A DNA stretch of 64,000 nt from Bacteroidota bacterium (GTDB lineage Bacteria; Bacteroidota; Bacteroidia; Chitinophagales; Chitinophagaceae): contig CANFXV010000009.1 in assembly GCA_947451115.1 (NCBI GenBank), positions 1-64,000 on the forward strand, in the 5' to 3' direction. Shown here piece after piece: positions 24,592-33,467 of the stretch (the stretch's first letter is position 1; every line of letters begins with the position of its first letter). Position numbers and translations under genes: made by a program. The notes under the pieces are model-generated. The model was not told the origin of the DNA, did not search any database, and was given only the letters and a program-made list of their open reading frames with translations.

Positions 24592-24599
24592 TACATTTG
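24592..24599 (+). promoter_or_regulatory. -7 box (TACATTTG) of the membrane sensor-like gene, predicted leaderless
   Basis: Exact TAnnTTTG match 3 nt before the ATG at 24603, and identical in sequence to the SRP RNA box. The alternative TTG start at 24597 lies inside the box and is rejected. Confidence 0.55.
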
Positions 24600-24602
24600 A
24601 CT

Positions 24603-26054
24603 ATGCGGTGGAAACAATTTTTAGTTTTTTTATTATTTATAATTAGTAGCATAAATGCCAATGCAGCGAGTAAATTAGATAATACTCCTTTTAAAAAACA
24701 GGACATTGCCCTTTTAGACCTGCTCTATAAAGACAGTGTCAATTCCCTAAACATTCAACTTAATTCGAGTATTTATCAATTTGGCTTAGACAATAAGGAA
24801 TATAGAAATATAGCCTTATTCAAACAAAAACAAGAAATTTGGCTACAGCCCTTGGGTACAGGTAAACTTTTTAAGGTCAATAAATCAAGTACTGGCTATT
24901 CCCTGCAAAGAATAGATTCCACCATTCATTCTGGGGTGAATTTTAATTCTGTAAGTTTTAGCTTACATGATACCCTTTTTCAATACGGAGGTTCTGGATT
25001 TTGGACCATTCGAGGCCTCATTACTTATTTTAGCAATAGTACCCATGAATGGGAATTGTACCCAAGCCACCAATCGGTGAATGGGTATGAAGGATTGTCT
25101 AATTATGCTTTCTACCATCTTGATACCCTTGCCAATAAATTGTATGCCACCAACGTAGTAGAATTAAAAGACCCCCCTTTTGATTTAGGTTTTAATGTGG
25201 TGGATAGTGTTTATACATTCAATTTTAAAACTAAAAATTGGACCAATTTAGGCCCCCTCAATCCCGAGTTTAAAAAAATGATTGACAAGGATAATTTTTA
25301 CACCTTACACCTTGGGAAATTATTTTTATTTAGAAGATTTTTTGACTGGCATTGGGTAGATTTCGAAAACAATTTATATGGCAATCTTAAAATAGAAAAG
25401 AATTCAGAAGCCAAACAAAAATGGCTGAATTTATACAATACAAAATCTACTTACCAAGATTTACAATTTAACTTAGGCAATACTTGCTACCTGATTAAAT
25501 TGGACCCAGATTTAAATACCACATATACTTCATTTACTATCCAAAAAGAAGATTTAGATTTAAGCGAAACAAAATACGTTTATAAAAAAAATAATTTTAT
25601 TCTTGCTTTCTATTTAAATACAGTGGTGCCATTTTTTACACCCAATGTATATATTTTAATCATTGTTTCGTTTTTTATCTTCTTTGTTTTATATCGTCAA
25701 AGAAAGAAAAGAGTACCCAAGGAAGTGAATGCTATTTTGAATTACAATTTCGTGAATTCACTCACTATTATTGAAAAAGAATTGGTACAAGTACTGTATC
25801 AGCAACAATTAAAAGGAGAGGAAATTTCTCCAAAATTGATCAATAAAATTATTGGTGTTCAACAAAAAGATACCCTAACACAGAACAAAAGTAGAAGCGA
25901 TCATTTCTTGAAAATAAATCAGAAATACAAATTAGCTACCCAACAAGAGTTACCCCTGATTGTTAAAAGTCGCGATAGTATCGACAAAAGACAATACAAT
26001 TATGGCTTAGAAACTAGGTACCTTCAAGAATTGAGTAAATATTTTAAAAGCTAA
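24603..26054 (+). CDS. Signal peptide + periplasmic domain + one TM helix + cytoplasmic tail; putative membrane sensor/regulator
   Basis: 483 residues; no family recognised with certainty. Residues 1-22 are a signal peptide (SINANAAS). Residues 23-335 are periplasmic, with Trp-rich blocks such as GSGFWTIRGLITYFSNSTHEWELYP and FKTKNWTNLGPLNPEF that recall Kelch beta-propeller blades. A single helix follows at about 343-363 (YILIIVSFFIFFVLY), then the basic RQRKKR. The ~119-residue tail starts with a helix pair (LTIIEKELVQVLYQQQLKGEEISPKLINKIIG) and contains NKSRSDHFLKINQKY and DSIDKRQYNYGL, which look like a small winged helix-turn-helix. The layout suggests direct signalling from periplasm to DNA. 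Its stop overlaps the stop of the convergent gene. Confidence 0.7.
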   Translation: MRWKQFLVFLLFIISSINANAASKLDNTPFKKQDIALLDLLYKDSVNSLNIQLNSSIYQFGLDNKEYRNIALFKQKQEIWLQPLGTGKLFKVNKSSTGYSLQRIDSTIHSGVNFNSVSFSLHDTLFQYGGSGFWTIRGLITYFSNSTHEWELYPSHQSVNGYEGLSNYAFYHLDTLANKLYATNVVELKDPPFDLGFNVVDSVYTFNFKTKNWTNLGPLNPEFKKMIDKDNFYTLHLGKLFLFRRFFDWHWVDFENNLYGNLKIEKNSEAKQKWLNLYNTKSTYQDLQFNLGNTCYLIKLDPDLNTTYTSFTIQKEDLDLSETKYVYKKNNFILAFYLNTVVPFFTPNVYILIIVSFFIFFVLYRQRKKRVPKEVNAILNYNFVNSLTIIEKELVQVLYQQQLKGEEISPKLINKIIGVQQKDTLTQNKSRSDHFLKINQKYKLATQQELPLIVKSRDSIDKRQYNYGLETRYLQELSKYFKS

Positions 26055-27025
26055 ACCAGAAGTAAGCTACAGCCTCTTCTTGCACTGGCATCTACCCTGC
26101 CAATGACCTTAAAACTGCCATCGGCAAAAACTTCTCCTAGGTCCTCTGTGGCTATAAAACTGCAGCTGTAAATATTAGCAAGATCGATGATATGCAATAC
26201 ACCCCTGCCTGTTTCTTTTAATGCCAATGGGTCTTCTTCATCTGCCACCAAAACCTTCATCCAGGGTGGGCATTTAAAAATACCTTCTTTTAATGAATAG
26301 GCCTGGCTAAGTAATTCCGTCATCCCGTATTCTGATTGAATATTATTCGTGCCTAAATTAGCAGATAAAACCTCATGCAATTCCTCTCTGGTCAATTCTG
26401 TTTTTCTTCCTTTCATTCCACCTGTTTCCACCACCTTGGTATGTAATAATTTTTGCGGAAAGGCTTCGGCAAAATCAGTCAAGGCAAAACTCACACCAAT
26501 TAACCAAACCGATTGCTTTGCCGCTTCTAATTTTTTTAGGGTGGCGTCTAATTTTTTAAAATCATCTAAATAAAACCCGCTGTCTGGATGATGGGAGGCT
26601 TGAATTAAATGATTGACCATGTATACTAAGGAAGAATGTTTGCGTTCTAAATAAGAAGGCAATAAGCCAAGTATGCAATAATCACTAGGGGATCCATAAA
26701 ATAAATTAAAACATTTCAAAAAGCTTTGCTCATACAAATGAATGTCTTGCACCCAATGCCTGCTCACCACATCTTGGGTGGTACCACTACTTTCAAATAA
26801 ATTGCTTGGTTTAGGTCCAATGCGTATTTCTTGCGTTTTATAAAAAGAGATGGGTAAAAATGGAATAGAACTTAAGTCCTGAGCATCACTTTTGTTTAGG
26901 TTAACCCATTGTTGATATACTTCATTCTGCTTCGCCTGCCACTGAAATATAATTTTAGCAACCCCAAAAAAATCTTCCTTGGGCAAAGTCCATAAATCCT
27001 GTGGGTTAATAGGGGGCTGAATCAC
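26051..27025 (-). CDS. LuxE/acyl-adenylate-type acyltransferase-like protein
   Basis: 324 residues, similar in plan to the LuxE acyl-protein synthetase family (PF04443), a branch of the acyl-adenylate enzymes. Visible marks are FLPISFYKTQEI, the phosphate-binding LFESSGTTQDVVSRHW near residue 78, GMKGRKTELTREEL, IQSEYGMTELLSQAY and GRGVLHIIDLANIYSCSFIATEDLG, ending GRVDASARRGCSLLLV. LuxE activates fatty acids with ATP and holds the acyl group on a Cys. There are no luxCDAB genes here, so light emission is not implied. In Bacteroidota such stand-alone proteins have no agreed role. Confidence 0.82.
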   Translation of the reverse strand: MIQPPINPQDLWTLPKEDFFGVAKIIFQWQAKQNEVYQQWVNLNKSDAQDLSSIPFLPISFYKTQEIRIGPKPSNLFESSGTTQDVVSRHWVQDIHLYEQSFLKCFNLFYGSPSDYCILGLLPSYLERKHSSLVYMVNHLIQASHHPDSGFYLDDFKKLDATLKKLEAAKQSVWLIGVSFALTDFAEAFPQKLLHTKVVETGGMKGRKTELTREELHEVLSANLGTNNIQSEYGMTELLSQAYSLKEGIFKCPPWMKVLVADEEDPLALKETGRGVLHIIDLANIYSCSFIATEDLGEVFADGSFKVIGRVDASARRGCSLLLV

Positions 27026-27146: not shown

Positions 27147-28274
27147 ATGGCAAAATCTACCGTTAAAAAACCAGCCGCAAAAGCAAAAAAAGAATTGATT
27201 AACGCCGATGCTTATCAATTTTTATCTAACTATATTAACAATCCCTCCCCTGTGGGTTTTGAAACCAGTGGCCAAAAAATTTGGTTGGACTATCTTACTA
27301 AATATGTAGATACCACTTTCACTGATCCTTATGGAACAGCCGTTGGGGTAATTAACCCCACTGCGCCTTTTAAAGTAGTTATAGAAGCGCATGCAGATGA
27401 AATTAGCTGGTTTGTGAATTACATTAATGAACAAGGCTTAATTCATTTAAAAAGAAATGGTGGTGTTGACCATCAAATTGCCCCTTCGATGCGTGTTTGG
27501 ATTCATGGCAAAAAAGGTCCGGTGAAAGCAGTATTTGGATGGCCTGCCATTCATACCCGCTTAAGCAATCCAGAACAAAAAGAACCTCAACCAAAAGTGG
27601 ACAATCTAACCTTGGATTGTGGTGCAAGATCAAAAAAGGAAGTGGAAGCCTTAGGTATTCATGTTGGTGCAGTGGTAACTTATCAAGAAGGCATGGACGA
27701 ATTGGCCAACGACTTTATTATTGGTCGTGCTTTTGATAATAGAGTGGGTGGATTTATGATTGCTGAAGTTGCCCGTATGTTAAAAGAAAATAAAAAGAAA
27801 TTACCATATGGCTTGTACATTGTCAATGCAGTGCAGGAAGAAATTGGTTTAAGAGGTGCTGAGATGATCGCTAGAAGAATCAAACCCAATATCGCCATCA
27901 TCACCGATGTGACCCATGATACACATACCCCAATGATCAACAAAGCCATTGAAGGGGATATCCAATGTGGCAAAGGCCCTTCCTTAGCCTATGCGCCAGC
28001 GATACATAATAAATTATTGGCCATTGTGGAAGACATAGCTAAAGCAAAAAAGATTCCTGTACAATTTAGAACCCTAAGCAGAAGCACGGGAACCGATACT
28101 GATAGTTTTGCTTATGCCAATGATGGTTGTCCTTCTGTCTTAATATCCATTCCATTAAGATACATGCATACCACCGTTGAAATGATTCATAAAAAAGACA
28201 TTGTAGATACTATTCAATTGATGTATGAAACTTTGTTGGTACTTTCTCCAAAGACCAATTTAAGCTACCTATAA
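27147..28274 (+). CDS. M42 family metallopeptidase
   Basis: 375 residues. The metal-site residues of the M42 co-catalytic aminopeptidases are present in order: H82 and D84 in EAHADEISWFV, D197 in RAFDNRVGG, E231-E232 in VQEEIGLRGA, D254 in IITDVTHDTH and H341 in YMHTTVEMIH. M42 enzymes form large tetrahedral shells and trim peptides from the N-terminus. A Lys/Ala-rich N-terminal extension (residues 1-16) is unusual for the family. The stop shares one base with the start of the amidotransferase gene (TAATG), a sign of translational coupling. Confidence 0.92.
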   Translation: MAKSTVKKPAAKAKKELINADAYQFLSNYINNPSPVGFETSGQKIWLDYLTKYVDTTFTDPYGTAVGVINPTAPFKVVIEAHADEISWFVNYINEQGLIHLKRNGGVDHQIAPSMRVWIHGKKGPVKAVFGWPAIHTRLSNPEQKEPQPKVDNLTLDCGARSKKEVEALGIHVGAVVTYQEGMDELANDFIIGRAFDNRVGGFMIAEVARMLKENKKKLPYGLYIVNAVQEEIGLRGAEMIARRIKPNIAIITDVTHDTHTPMINKAIEGDIQCGKGPSLAYAPAIHNKLLAIVEDIAKAKKIPVQFRTLSRSTGTDTDSFAYANDGCPSVLISIPLRYMHTTVEMIHKKDIVDTIQLMYETLLVLSPKTNLSYL

Positions 28275-29068
28275 TGACTAAGCCCATCATTACAATTGCC
28301 ATCATTGATTTGTATGATGGAACTACGAATGTGGGTATGGAATGCATTATCAATATTATAAATAATTGGGGGGTTAAAAGAAATTTTACCATTGAGCCTA
28401 CTATTTTTAAATTAAGGGAGTCTAATGAAATTCCAGACCACCAATTTGATATTTATATTTCTTCTGGCGGACCAGGCTCTCCCTTAGATTCTATAAATTC
28501 AAGTTGGGACAATTTATACATTCAATGGTTGGAAAAAATGTTGGAATTGAACAAGCCTGTTTTTTTAATTTGTCATAGTTTTCAAATGGCTTGCAGGCAT
28601 TTTAATTTAGGTAGCATCGGATTAAGAAAGTCTCGACAAATTGGGGTCTTGCCTGTGCACCCTTTATGTGCCGATCCAATTTTTGAAGGATTGGACGACC
28701 CTTTCTATGCATTAGAAAGTAGGGCCTATCAAATTGTAGCCCCTAATGACGAAGCGATAACAAAAATGGGTGCTACCATTATTGCACTTGAAAAAATTAG
28801 ACCTCAGGTTCCTTTAGAAAGAGCCATTATGGCCATACGATTTAATGAAAATATGATTGGTGTGCAATTTCATCCAGAAGGGGAACCAAAGGCTTTGCAT
28901 GTTTTTTTAAATAACCCAGACTTAAAAAAAGTAATTATTGAAGAATTTGGAATTGAAAAATGGGAGAAAAATATGGCCTATTTAGACGACCCCTCTAAAA
29001 TTCAAAAAACATCCGAAAATCTTATCCCTAATTTTCTAGACGCTGCTATTCAATTTAAAAAGCATTAA
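28274..29068 (+). CDS. Stand-alone class I glutamine amidotransferase
   Basis: 264 residues with the full GATase1 triad: C100 in VFLICHSFQMAC, H200 and E202 in GVQFHPEGEP. The oxyanion loop is YISSGGPGSPLDS near 61-73. GATase1 domains release ammonia from glutamine and hand it to a synthase partner. The protein looks like the amidase half of GMP synthase, but the ATP-pyrophosphatase half is not present. The natural partner is the ATP-grasp-like gene 8 nt downstream. A ~50-residue C-terminal extension follows the triad. Confidence 0.85.
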   Translation: MTKPIITIAIIDLYDGTTNVGMECIINIINNWGVKRNFTIEPTIFKLRESNEIPDHQFDIYISSGGPGSPLDSINSSWDNLYIQWLEKMLELNKPVFLICHSFQMACRHFNLGSIGLRKSRQIGVLPVHPLCADPIFEGLDDPFYALESRAYQIVAPNDEAITKMGATIIALEKIRPQVPLERAIMAIRFNENMIGVQFHPEGEPKALHVFLNNPDLKKVIIEEFGIEKWEKNMAYLDDPSKIQKTSENLIPNFLDAAIQFKKH

Positions 29069-29076
29069 GCATTTAT

Positions 29077-30273
29077 ATGATTTTAAGTATAAGGCAACAA
29101 TTCAATACATCATTTACAGCAGAAAAATACCAAGACTATCTTTCTGCCATTATGAATAGCTATCCCAATGCCTTGGACTTTAGAATTGCAGAAACCCCTA
29201 TTTTTATCGATGCTGCATTTACAGCCGCCATGCTTGAACTAGGCCATTATGTTAGCGAAGAGATTTTGAGTGCCGATTTTAAAAAAAATACCCAAGCCTC
29301 TTTAGCCGGGCAGCCCATCACCCCCAATGAAACCGAACATCCAGATTGTATGGTAATGGATTTTGCCATTACTTTGGATGAGAAAAATAATTTAGTACCT
29401 AAACTAATTGAACTGCAGGGCTTCCCATCTTTGTTTGCTTTTGAATTACTACAAGATGAAGCTTTAAAAAACAATTTTAATCTTCCCCCTAATTACAGTC
29501 CATTTTTAAATGGGTACGATAAAGAAAAATACTTAGCCCATTTGAAACAGGTCATTTGCGGCACCAAGGGCGAACATGCCGTCTTACTTGAATTGTATCC
29601 CCATCAACAAAAAACAAGGATTGATTTTTATTGCACTCAAAAATACTCAGGCATACCTATTGTATGCATCACAGAATTAATTCAAAAAGGACGCGAACTA
29701 TTTTACATAAGCAATGGTACCCCGATCAAAATTGATCGCATCTACAATAGAATTGTGATGGATGAATTAAATAGACAACCCAAGGCCATACAAGCAATGG
29801 GGGAAATTTTACAAAGCGATCTAGACATTAGTTGGGTAACCCATCCTCATCATTTTTTTAGAATAAGTAAATTTTTACTACCTTTTTTACATCATCCTTT
29901 GATTCCCCAAACGCAGTTTGTTCACGCATTAAAATCAATACCTAAAAATTTAGAGGCCTATATATTAAAACCCCTTTTTTCATTTGCTGGACAAGGCGTC
30001 ATTATCGATATTCAAGCCGGCGACATTGAATCCTTAGCTCATCCCGAACAATGGATTTTACAAGAAAAAGTAAAATACGCCGAATGCATCGAAACCCCTT
30101 CTGGCCCAGCCAAAGCAGAAATTAGATTATTTTATTTCTGGGATGATGTCCGCCAAAAATACATAGCCACCATGAACCTAGCCCGATTAAGCAAAGGTCT
30201 GATGATTGGCGTTGATTACAATAAAAACAAACAATGGGTGGGCGGCAGTTTGGCTTATTTTGAAACCAAGTAA
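29077..30273 (+). CDS. ATP-grasp-like ligase of unknown substrate
   Basis: 398 residues; not matched to a named enzyme. The C-terminal third shows ATP-grasp features: K298 in AYILKPLFSFAGQGV with a Gly-rich loop (G305, G307), the hinge-like WILQEKVKYAEC (E330), an acidic and basic pair in KAEIRLFYFW (E348, R350), and N367 in MNLARLSKGLMIGV. The N-terminal part carries VMDFAITLDE and LIELQGFPSLFAFELLQ, which resemble blocks of permuted ATP-grasp proteins. ATP-grasp enzymes join a carboxylate to an amine through an acyl-phosphate. Coupled to an amidotransferase, it could amidate a carboxylate or ligate an amino compound. Confidence 0.7.
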   Translation: MILSIRQQFNTSFTAEKYQDYLSAIMNSYPNALDFRIAETPIFIDAAFTAAMLELGHYVSEEILSADFKKNTQASLAGQPITPNETEHPDCMVMDFAITLDEKNNLVPKLIELQGFPSLFAFELLQDEALKNNFNLPPNYSPFLNGYDKEKYLAHLKQVICGTKGEHAVLLELYPHQQKTRIDFYCTQKYSGIPIVCITELIQKGRELFYISNGTPIKIDRIYNRIVMDELNRQPKAIQAMGEILQSDLDISWVTHPHHFFRISKFLLPFLHHPLIPQTQFVHALKSIPKNLEAYILKPLFSFAGQGVIIDIQAGDIESLAHPEQWILQEKVKYAECIETPSGPAKAEIRLFYFWDDVRQKYIATMNLARLSKGLMIGVDYNKNKQWVGGSLAYFETK

Positions 30274-31936: not shown

Positions 31937-32383
31937 TTAAAAGTTTAAATAATAAATACCCGCTGTTGGAAGTAACTCTTTATTTACAATGTTCACTTTC
32001 TGAGGATTTGTTATATTTTTTGCACCAGTTAATTTCCACTTAAATTGATAGCCATCTAGGGAGACCACTTCATTATCGATTGCTTTACTCATTGGAAAAT
32101 TAGCAGTCAATTGCATCGTTTCTATAGCAAAACCAGCGTCATATACCGCTTCTCTAATTTGCTCAATTTTTACTTTATCTGGAGACTTAAAAGCCAAACT
32201 ATAACTAGACTTATCAATATCCACTTTCACCTCAGCTACAAAATCTAATGCCGACAAAGCCTTAAAAATAGCCTTAGAGCACATAGAGCAAGTAAGTCCG
32301 CTTGCGACTAGTTCTACCGATTGTACTTGCGCTTTTGCATTTGTACTTAAAAAGAAAAATAAACCTATAATTAAATACCTCAT
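31937..32383 (-). CDS. Secreted HMA-domain protein
   Basis: 148 residues. A signal peptide (about 1-18, TNAKAQ) is followed by one heavy-metal-associated ferredoxin-like domain. The metal-binding loop is GLTCSMCSKA with C32 and C35, and REAVYDAGFAIE closes the fold. This is like MerP or the copper chaperones but periplasmic. About 60 further residues (VVSLDGYQFKWKLTGAKN... ) form a C-terminal part of unknown fold. It sits between two other small secreted genes on the same strand. Confidence 0.85.
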   Translation of the reverse strand: MRYLIIGLFFFLSTNAKAQVQSVELVASGLTCSMCSKAIFKALSALDFVAEVKVDIDKSSYSLAFKSPDKVKIEQIREAVYDAGFAIETMQLTANFPMSKAIDNEVVSLDGYQFKWKLTGAKNITNPQKVNIVNKELLPTAGIYYLNF

Positions 32384-32447
32384 TTAAATAATTTTTAGAA
32401 AAAAAATGAAACAATTGGAAATTAAAATTTCAGCACCCTGAAATAAT

Positions 32448-32509
32448 AAAAACATCACCAACTACCTATTATTTTAATTTAAATAAATAAAATAATTGAT
32501 GATGTTTTT
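32448..32509 (-). terminator. Terminator after the Cys-rich HMA gene
   Basis: AAAAACATCA (32448-32457) pairs with TGATGTTTTT (32500-32509), with a further inner TTATTTTA / TAAAATAA pairing. On the minus strand the T-run comes after the stem. It divides the Cys-rich HMA gene (ends 32521) from the next HMA gene. Confidence 0.65.
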
Positions 32510-32520
32510 AAGCTTACCAA

Positions 32521-33003
32521 TTATTTGCAGCAAGCGCCATCTTTGCAACATTTAGCGTCCTTCTTGCAACATCCCATTTCTTTGTTATCGCTAGACATTC
32601 CTTTTTTGCAGGTTACCCCATCTGCACAGCAGCTGGCACCTGGCTTGCAACAGTTGGCAGTTTCTGCCACTGCAGTTTTGCTCATTCTCTCATATTGGCA
32701 ACACTCGTCTAATTTACCATATGCCTCAGCAGTAGCAACTTTATGCTCTGTATCATAACCAGCAGCGGCCACTGCGTCTTCTATTTTATCGGTAGATGTT
32801 TTTGACGCATCAAAGGTTACTTTTAAAACTTTGGCCACTTTGTCCCAATCAGCTGATGTTGCACCAGCTTGTTTAGCCGCTTTTTCAATATGACCTTTGC
32901 ACATTCCGCAGTTTCCTGCTACTTTAATTTGATGCGCATTTTGTGCTTGTAAAGCAAAATTGGAGATTAAAATAAACCCCGCTAATACTATAAAATTTTT
33001 CAT
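32521..33003 (-). CDS. Secreted HMA-domain protein with metallothionein-like Cys-rich tail
   Basis: 160 residues. A signal peptide (ALQAQ) precedes one HMA domain with the loop AGNCGMCKGHIEKAAKQAG (C32, C35). After about residue 98 the protein becomes a Cys-rich tail with six CC pairs and one single Cys (DECCQ, NCCKPGASCCADGVTCKKG, GCCKKDAKCCKDGACCK), so 13 of 63 residues are Cys. The tail should hold several soft metal ions such as Cu(I), Zn or Cd, or act as a sink outside the cytoplasm. HMA and Cys-rich tail in one exported chain is unusual. Confidence 0.85.
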   Translation of the reverse strand: MKNFIVLAGFILISNFALQAQNAHQIKVAGNCGMCKGHIEKAAKQAGATSADWDKVAKVLKVTFDASKTSTDKIEDAVAAAGYDTEHKVATAEAYGKLDECCQYERMSKTAVAETANCCKPGASCCADGVTCKKGMSSDNKEMGCCKKDAKCCKDGACCK

Positions 33004-33040
33004 GACTTACTATTTAATAATTTTTGAATAATGAACAAGG

Positions 33041-33073
33041 ATGGCCGGGTCTAATTTTTAGACAGCTGGCCAT
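33041..33073. other. Nested inverted repeat in the gap before the Cys-rich HMA gene
   Basis: ATGGCC (33041-33046) pairs with GGCCAT, and inside it GTCTAA pairs with TTAGAC. There is no T-run after it on either strand. It is in the leader of the minus-strand HMA gene, so it could be a control element or a weak terminator of the gene upstream. Confidence 0.35.
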
Positions 33074-33110
33074 TGGCACTAATGCCATAACACAAGTGCA
33101 TGAAAAAAAA

Positions 33111-33467
33111 TCAAATTAAATAAACGCAGATAAACTCATAGATAGGAGGGCCTGTATCTATTAAAGACTTTTTAGAAATAAAAGTCTTGGCATTCAATGC
33201 TAAAACAGCAGTATAATTATTTGTATATGTAGGCTTGTGAATGCTAAGATTTAAATGCTTAACAAGTGAAGTAGCAGTTACTTGAAACTGATGCTGGTCT
33301 TGAGACTTTAAATACACTGTTTTTTCAGAACAGCATAAGTCTTTTTTAGCAGGCTTGCCACACTTGCATGTTTTTACCTTACCTGCACATAGATGGGTAG
33401 TAGCTGTTGCGCCGATACTAGCAACAGCATATAACAAAACTAAAAATATAGTAATTACCCTTTTCAT
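33111..33467 (-). CDS. HYC_CC_PP family-like small exported protein
   Basis: 118 residues. A signal peptide (about 1-20) is followed by HLC at 25-27, CKC at 34-36, CC at 45-46 and a PP pair at 107-108 (DTGPPIYEFICVYLI). This order fits the HYC_CC_PP proteins, named after their motifs and common in Bacteroidota near metal genes and TonB-dependent receptors. The role is not known; metal binding is likely from the Cys and His residues. A -7 box sits 5 nt before the ATG. The next genes on the strand are the two HMA proteins. Confidence 0.78.
   Translation of the reverse strand: MKRVITIFLVLLYAVASIGATATTHLCAGKVKTCKCGKPAKKDLCCSEKTVYLKSQDQHQFQVTATSLVKHLNLSIHKPTYTNNYTAVLALNAKTFISKKSLIDTGPPIYEFICVYLI

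Follow-up and report, generated by a model that had tools for sequence, protein, structure and literature searches.

We describe here a pair of neighbouring genes from a stretch of 64,000 nucleotides of a Bacteroidota bacterium of the family Chitinophagaceae (assembly GCA_947451115.1, contig CANFXV010000009.1, positions 1 to 64,000 of the forward strand), which we call the window. The first gene encodes a class I glutamine amidotransferase-like protein and the second a predicted ATP-grasp ligase, AG in what follows; the gene of an M42-family metallo-aminopeptidase precedes them (Table 1). Across the phylum these two genes belong to a larger set, whose most constant other members are a GCS2 ligase, c1, and a second ATP-grasp ligase, c2, both outside the window. 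The reading that we tentatively favour is that AG and the amidotransferase-like protein are parts of a conserved amidoligase module, that its product is glutathione-like, and that the amidotransferase-like protein has a hydrolytic role in it. The evidence that carries this reading comes from folds, conserved residues, gene linkage and co-occurrence.

Table 1. The three genes of the locus, with the basis on which each product is assigned.
Product	Position in window	Strand	Length (amino acids)	Basis of assignment
M42-family metallo-aminopeptidase	27147..28274	+	375	PF05343
Class I glutamine amidotransferase-like protein	28274..29068	+	264	PF00117 and catalytic triad
ATP-grasp ligase AG	29077..30273	+	398	Predicted fold (YgiC / glutathione synthetase / glutathionylspermidine synthetase)

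The family of AG has to be read from its structure. The protein of the window stays below every Pfam and NCBIfam cut-off: its sole Pfam match is PF14403, with 12.2 bits against a cut-off of 32 and an E-value of 0.089, and NCBIfam gives none. Among 40 AG members the commonest weak Pfam match is GSP_synth (PF03738), found in 15 of them with a best E-value of 3.7e-4, and the best NCBIfam E-value is 0.002; a profile built on 40 homologues (alignment A1) finds a single PDB sequence, that of YgiC (7uk8), with an E-value of 0.017. The AlphaFold2 model of AG, computed from an alignment of 68 sequences, has a mean predicted local distance difference test score (pLDDT) of 93 and a predicted template modelling score (pTM) of 0.91. 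Submitted to Foldseek, it yields 21 matches at E ≤ 0.001, the best at 5e-14, and all 21 belong to the group of YgiC, glutathione synthetase, putative glutathionylspermidine synthase and Cp1B. In the ranking produced by VIA-align, Z-scores lie between 20 and 26 in the top 22 rows, then fall to 12.7 in the next row and below 8 in the rest. The nearest full-length folds are Escherichia coli YgiC and YjfC (PDB 7uk8, 7uka and 7uk6; Z 25.9, 25.2 and 25.1; 14-16% identity), the alignment with YgiC extending over 343 residues at 3.4 Å. They are followed by glutathione synthetases (about 24), glutathionylspermidine synthetase (23.9), Cp1B (23.0) and trypanothione synthetase (22.4), and the identity of AG to its structural matches is 8-17% overall. 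The modelled fold places AG, over its whole length, among the ATP-grasp ligases of the YgiC / glutathione synthetase / glutathionylspermidine synthetase superfamily, with a predicted ligation activity. The initial annotation of the locus, made from the sequence alone, had called it an ATP-grasp-type ligase, and the predicted fold supports that call; the examination gave no sign of a different fold devoid of an ATP site.

The conserved residues tell a similar story. In the profile match, K298 of AG is aligned to the lysine of the YgiC segment VVKPIFSREG, and K298, G305 and G307 are invariant in all 40 relatives, on a strand and loop of the KPLxSxxG type; we take K298 to be the ATP-binding lysine. 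E348 and R350 are equally invariant (40/40). These residues were among those named as ATP-grasp features in the initial annotation, which also listed E330 and N367: since position 330 is Glu in only 14 of the 40 relatives and position 367 is Asn in 30, the latter two are not fixed features of AG. On the other hand, the annotation had overlooked E112-x-Q114, invariant in 40/40. A Glu-x-Asn motif binds metal in this ATP-grasp superfamily, and E112-x-Q114 of AG may correspond to it.

Two samples underlie the counts of gene neighbours. The first comprises 296 genomes of the phylum Bacteroidota, 91 of which have AG; the AG neighbourhood was inspected in 40 of these 91, over 20 kb where the contig permitted. 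The second consists of the best 80 of 578 named-genome loci, mostly from metagenome-assembled genomes of Chitinophagaceae type, and its linkage counts are lower bounds, because contig ends cut some of the loci. Among these 80 nearest loci, the amidotransferase gene lies within 3.5 kb of AG in at least 65, on the same strand in 64 of the 65, with a median gap of 54 bases. Phylum-wide, it is the nearest upstream gene at 19 of the 40 loci, where the upstream neighbour is defined as the nearest gene on the same strand that encodes at least 150 amino acids and lies at most 1.5 kb from AG. The pairing is far beyond chance, and AG and the amidotransferase are neighbours in other genomes too.

The remaining 21 upstream slots hold an M29 peptidase (5), GCS2 (3), an amidohydrolase of family PF07969 (3), a symporter (1), a symporter fused to AG (1), and another gene or none (8). 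All five M29 proteins and all three amidohydrolases exceed their Pfam cut-offs; the amidohydrolase genes run 4 to 29 bases into the start of AG (loci L065, L068 and L070), and a strong amidotransferase homologue is absent from all eight genomes concerned. In the fusion, one frame of 867 amino acids encodes both a sodium:solute symporter (PF00474) and AG (L045:8136-10739, genome G125). At L056:9289-11868 (genome G133) the symporter lies 18 bases upstream of AG and the two genes are separate. A genome of the same genus as G125, G268, has a long AG frame of 535 amino acids close to a contig end (L021).

The fullest recurring gene order is: esterase-like (c4), ATP-grasp (c2), GCS2 (c1), amidotransferase, AG. 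Both c1 and c2 are present at 20 of the 40 loci. Protein c1 belongs to GCS2 (PF04107, 2e-57), and its profile matches YbdK at 1.8e-69, with a weak match to plant glutamate-cysteine ligase (E-value 2.3e-5). Protein c2 is an ATP-grasp by profile, through D-Ala-D-Ala ligase (E-value 1.2e-4). The c4 protein is alpha/beta-hydrolase-like: it scores above the cut-off of PF00756 at loci L163 and L167, and just below Pfam cut-offs at L054. Near the module, loci L057, L060 and L064 also have genes for an M17 leucyl aminopeptidase and for one more ATP-grasp ligase, of about 400 amino acids.

The association between these genes extends to their presence in whole genomes. Strong orthologues of c1, with at least 52% identity, occur in 86 of the 296 genomes, every one of which has AG, so that 86 of the 91 AG genomes have c1; 16 weaker matches (31-48%), excluded from the count, are all in AG-free genomes. 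Counted at 49% identity or more, with 4 weaker (34-44%) and 5 marginal matches excluded, c2 occurs in 102 genomes, 87 of them with AG (87/91) and 15 without. Homologues of the amidotransferase, counted at E < 1e-30 with 12 weaker ones excluded, are found in 70 genomes, and 68 of these 70 also carry c2. We compared the overlaps with AG to those obtained in 20,000 shuffles within families, over 21 tabulated families (f33 and f46-f49, with one or two genomes each, were left out). The observed overlap of AG was 80 with c1, 81 with c2 and 55 with the amidotransferase; the shuffles gave means of 59.2, 60.3 and 36.8, and none of them reached the observed values. Related genomes are non-independent samples, but the distribution of AG is patchy in 15 of these 21 families.

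The 15 genomes that have c2 and lack AG are exactly those with a strong amidotransferase homologue and no AG, and all 15 carry another protein, x4, a permuted ATP-grasp of 450 amino acids. Two of the three x4 members examined pass the cut-off of PF14403, and the x4 profile matches PDB chain 3n6x at 1.7e-8. In this version of the module the order is ATP-grasp, x4, amidotransferase, and PF00756 esterases often flank it (L162, L163, L165, L167-L169 and L171). One genome, G137, has AG together with a more distant relative of x4 (E-value 1.9e-111). A direct profile-profile comparison of AG with x4 gives an E-value of 0.0026 and a probability of 11 over 194 columns, which does no more than suggest kinship between the two; on evidence apart from this match, both are ATP-grasps of the glutathionylspermidine-synthase kind.

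We now turn to the amidotransferase-like protein, whose role is the most delicate part of the reading. It scores 43.5 bits with PF00117, for a cut-off of 22.8, and the triad C100/H200/E202 is invariant in its homologues (24 of 24). No synthase domain appears among its Pfam matches, so the initial description of a full triad without a synthase domain is correct. The homologues also retain the GGPGxP loop and the Q-F-H-P-E motif. The usual nucleophile elbow of class I glutamine amidotransferases (GATases) is G-x-C-x-G. This pattern is found in none of the 24 homologues, which have Leu, Phe or Ser at -2 and Ser at +2: their elbow is (L/F/S)-(I/V)-C-(H/Y)-S-x-Q, mostly (L/F)-I-C-H-S. The model of the protein, with a pLDDT of 92, has as its best structural match the GATase 1o1y (TM1158), with a Z-score of 24.2, followed by DnfC (22.8), Arabidopsis gamma-glutamyl peptidase 1 (22.7) and homoserine acyltransferases (22.6). 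With TM1158, DnfC and gamma-glutamyl peptidase 1 it shares the fold and the Cys-His-Glu triad, at 12-14% identity and with an atypical elbow. Since GATases, gamma-glutamyl peptidase 1 and homoserine acyltransferases are about equally close, fold and triad are no proof of a glutaminase.

From these elements we infer the substrates, the order of the steps, the hydrolytic role and the product in the following scheme. A YbdK-type GCS2 ligase, encoded elsewhere in the genome of the window, would form a gamma-glutamyl or similar carboxylate-amine bond; the second ATP-grasp ligase, missing in the lineage of the window, would usually contribute too. AG would use ATP to turn a peptide carboxylate into an acyl phosphate and would join it to an amine, in the manner of YgiC, glutathione synthetase and glutathionylspermidine synthetase. 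The product would most likely be a small glutathione-like gamma-glutamyl peptide or peptide-amine. The amidotransferase-like protein would most likely hydrolyse a gamma-glutamyl or related amide bond, releasing or recycling the product; the M42 peptidase may assist in the clade of the window.

Assuming that the same ligase module is at work, the amidotransferase-like protein could also be a glutaminase that passes ammonia to the adjacent ATP-grasp, and the product a peptide amide, for instance a glutathione-amide-like one. We consider this a serious possibility. The score with PF00117, the triad, the GGPGxP loop and the QFHPE motif would suit an ammonia donor; the gene has a permuted ATP-grasp as its neighbour in either version of the module, AG at 19 of 40 loci and x4, which directly precedes it, in 14 of 15 genomes; and c2 accompanies it almost everywhere. 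Ammonia supply fits less well with the replacement of the protein by M29 peptidases at 5 loci and by amidohydrolases at 3, with its absence from 36 of the 91 AG genomes, or with an elbow that has no Gly at -2 and a Ser at +2. Because peptidases or amidohydrolases hold the place of the amidotransferase at 8 of 40 loci, in genomes that have no strong homologue of it, we slightly prefer hydrolysis; ammonia supply comes a close second, given that the amidotransferase keeps its place beside the permuted ATP-grasp whether that is AG or x4.

Several observations count against the favoured scheme, that is, a glutathione-like product and a hydrolytic amidotransferase-like protein. The order of genes around x4, just mentioned, suits an ammonia donor; by family score the amidotransferase-like protein is a class I GATase, and a GATase is also its best structural match. 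Its strong homologues are, as said, lacking in 36 AG genomes. AG is found without GCS2 in four AG genomes of family f2 and in genome G212, and 8 of the 15 x4 genomes have no GCS2-like match of any kind, so that a gamma-glutamyl group would there have to come from another ligase. The bacillithiol enzyme BshC (PF10079) exceeds its cut-off in 290 of the 296 genomes, and 89 of the 91 AG genomes are among these 290; this speaks against the module as a stand-in for bacillithiol and has no bearing on another thiol. Finally, the second ATP-grasp was found neither in the genome of the window, an assembly of 59 contigs that totals 2.12 Mb and is 89% complete, nor in the 10 relatives examined that have small genomes of 1.5-2.5 Mb (L071-L078, L085 and L145).

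This last absence could be blamed on an assembly gap, which is unlikely: the 10 small relatives all lack c2, and 6 of 6 larger relatives, of 3.2-4.1 Mb, have it with 86-97% identity. A loss in the lineage is for the same reason the most likely explanation. The GCS2 gene is present in the genome of the window, on another contig (G000:C44:3604-4683), beside PhoH and ribulose-phosphate epimerase.

The M42 peptidase deserves separate treatment, as the initial annotation proposed that the three genes of Table 1 by themselves make and trim an amidated peptide. The layout on which this was founded is reproduced: the three plus-strand frames have the coordinates first given, the peptidase and amidotransferase genes overlap by one base (TAATG), and 8 bases separate the amidotransferase gene from AG. 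Such spacing leaves no room for a graspetide precursor gene between the three frames, small open reading frames elsewhere not having been searched for. The protein scores 253 bits with PF05343, for a cut-off of 23.2, and the motifs HADE, FDNR, QEE, TDV and HTTVE are present, so that the metal ligands are kept, as announced. All three genes are together in at least 26 of the 80 nearest loci, mainly in a Sediminibacterium-like clade, and the one-base overlap recurs at nine near-relative loci (L071-L078 and L085) besides the window. In Sediminibacterium goheungense DSM 28323 (L101) the three genes are likewise grouped and c2 is encoded at another place, and in Niastella yeongjuensis DSM 17621 (L147) c1, the amidotransferase and AG share a stretch of 9 kb. 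In genome G126 the peptidase gene lies about 1.4 kb from the amidotransferase, even though AG is about 200 kb away. Among 97 genomes of the family of the window, 70 have both M42 and AG, 10 have M42 only, 1 has AG only and 16 have neither.

These are the facts in favour of a trio acting as a pathway, and we still judge it very unlikely. Phylum-wide, M42 is adjacent at 1 of 40 AG loci, and in the family of the window it lies within 6 kb of AG in only 8 of the 67 genomes compared for position; moreover, the trio omits GCS2 and the second ATP-grasp, the near-constant partners, neither of which is in the window. For most of the phylum M42 is rejected as a core part of the module: it is a lineage-bound neighbour, whose presence loosely tracks that of AG in the family of the window. 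The expectation that the three genes would stay together in other genomes is therefore borne out widely for the amidotransferase and AG, and fails largely for M42.

A trio of an amidotransferase, an acetyltransferase/ATP-grasp protein and an M42 peptidase is known to make the osmoprotectant NAGGN, and the window recalls it by placing an M42 peptidase next to an amidotransferase and an ATP-grasp. Model scores reject this identification: the M42 protein reaches 43.3 bits, for a TIGR03106 cut-off of 397.75, AG has no NCBIfam match, and none of the models of the NAGGN trio is among the 20 NCBIfam matches of the amidotransferase-like protein.

Some further features surround the locus. Just upstream of M42, on the minus strand (26051-27025), is the gene of a LuxE-like acyl-protein synthetase (PF04443, 25.8 bits for a cut-off of 24.9), which adjoins M42 in most of the relatives that have the order M42, amidotransferase, AG. 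At 24597-26054 is a protein of 485 amino acids, without a Pfam match over the cut-off, which diverges fast (39-54% identity) but keeps its position in eight of the closest relatives. At the other side, a cluster of small proteins at 31937-33467 has CxxC motifs that, on inspection, resemble heavy-metal-binding domains. Lastly, locus L076 is recorded as Comamonas sp., yet its M42 protein is 92% identical to that of the window: the stretch is that of a close relative, and its bin or label is probably wrong.

In yet another reading, the module would serve scavenging or breakdown: GCS2 and AG would activate amines or peptides from the environment, and the hydrolases would then degrade them for nitrogen. 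The M42, M29 and M17 peptidases, the amidohydrolases and the esterases found nearby would fit, as would the symporter fused to AG at one locus and 18 bases upstream of it at another, and two families of oxidoreductases that recur at 4 and 5 of the 40 loci. However, the symporter is found only at these two loci, both in family f28, the position of the oxidoreductases shifts from locus to locus, and the constant part of the module consists of ligases. We regard this reading as improbable.

If the module does make a glutathione-like compound by ligation, as we prefer to think, it can be compared with several known systems. Glutathione biosynthesis, with a plant or GCS2-type glutamate-cysteine ligase and a eukaryotic-type synthetase, uses the same pair of folds as c1 and AG; the present module adds a further ATP-grasp, the amidotransferase-like protein and hydrolases, in a phylum whose sampled genomes nearly all have BshC. 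Glutathionylspermidine and trypanothione synthetases align with AG over their synthetase part, but AG, with its 398 amino acids, has no separate amidase domain. YgiC and YjfC, like AG, consist of a single ligase domain, with which AG has a marginal sequence similarity. What sets AG apart from them is its company: GCS2, a second ATP-grasp and an amidotransferase-like protein. A 2023 paper cited in PMC12568646 calls the two E. coli proteins peptide-spermidine ligases in its title.

Clusters of ligases with peptidases are a known kind. Amidoligase neighbourhoods in which ATP-grasp, GCS2-like and permuted ATP-grasp ligases occur with peptidases were reportedly described by Iyer et al. in 2009. The literature matches listed contain no description of this enzyme set and nothing on a carboxylate-amine ligase combined with an amidotransferase; their coverage is thin for subscription journals, and the set may still be described there.

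The analysis ties an unnamed ligase family, found in almost a third of the sampled genomes (91/296), to defined partner enzymes, and the module predicts both the genes and the type of molecule for a metabolite that is possibly widespread in a major bacterial phylum. A near-constant partner is all the more useful for GCS2, since YbdK, the closest solved relative of c1, is a "hypothetical protein" in its PDB entry. The 15 genomes in which the distant permuted ATP-grasp x4 replaces AG offer a natural comparison of substrates. Going further, one may conjecture, with considerable doubt, that an undescribed small gamma-glutamyl peptide, perhaps glutathione-amide-like or a peptide-amine, is produced in about a third of the sampled Bacteroidota by a modular non-ribosomal pathway. 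This pathway would combine a YbdK-type GCS2 ligase, a second ATP-grasp, one of two interchangeable families of permuted ATP-grasps, and either a class I amidotransferase-like enzyme or another amide hydrolase; the small-genome lineage of the window, with one ligase less, would make a shortened version of the compound.

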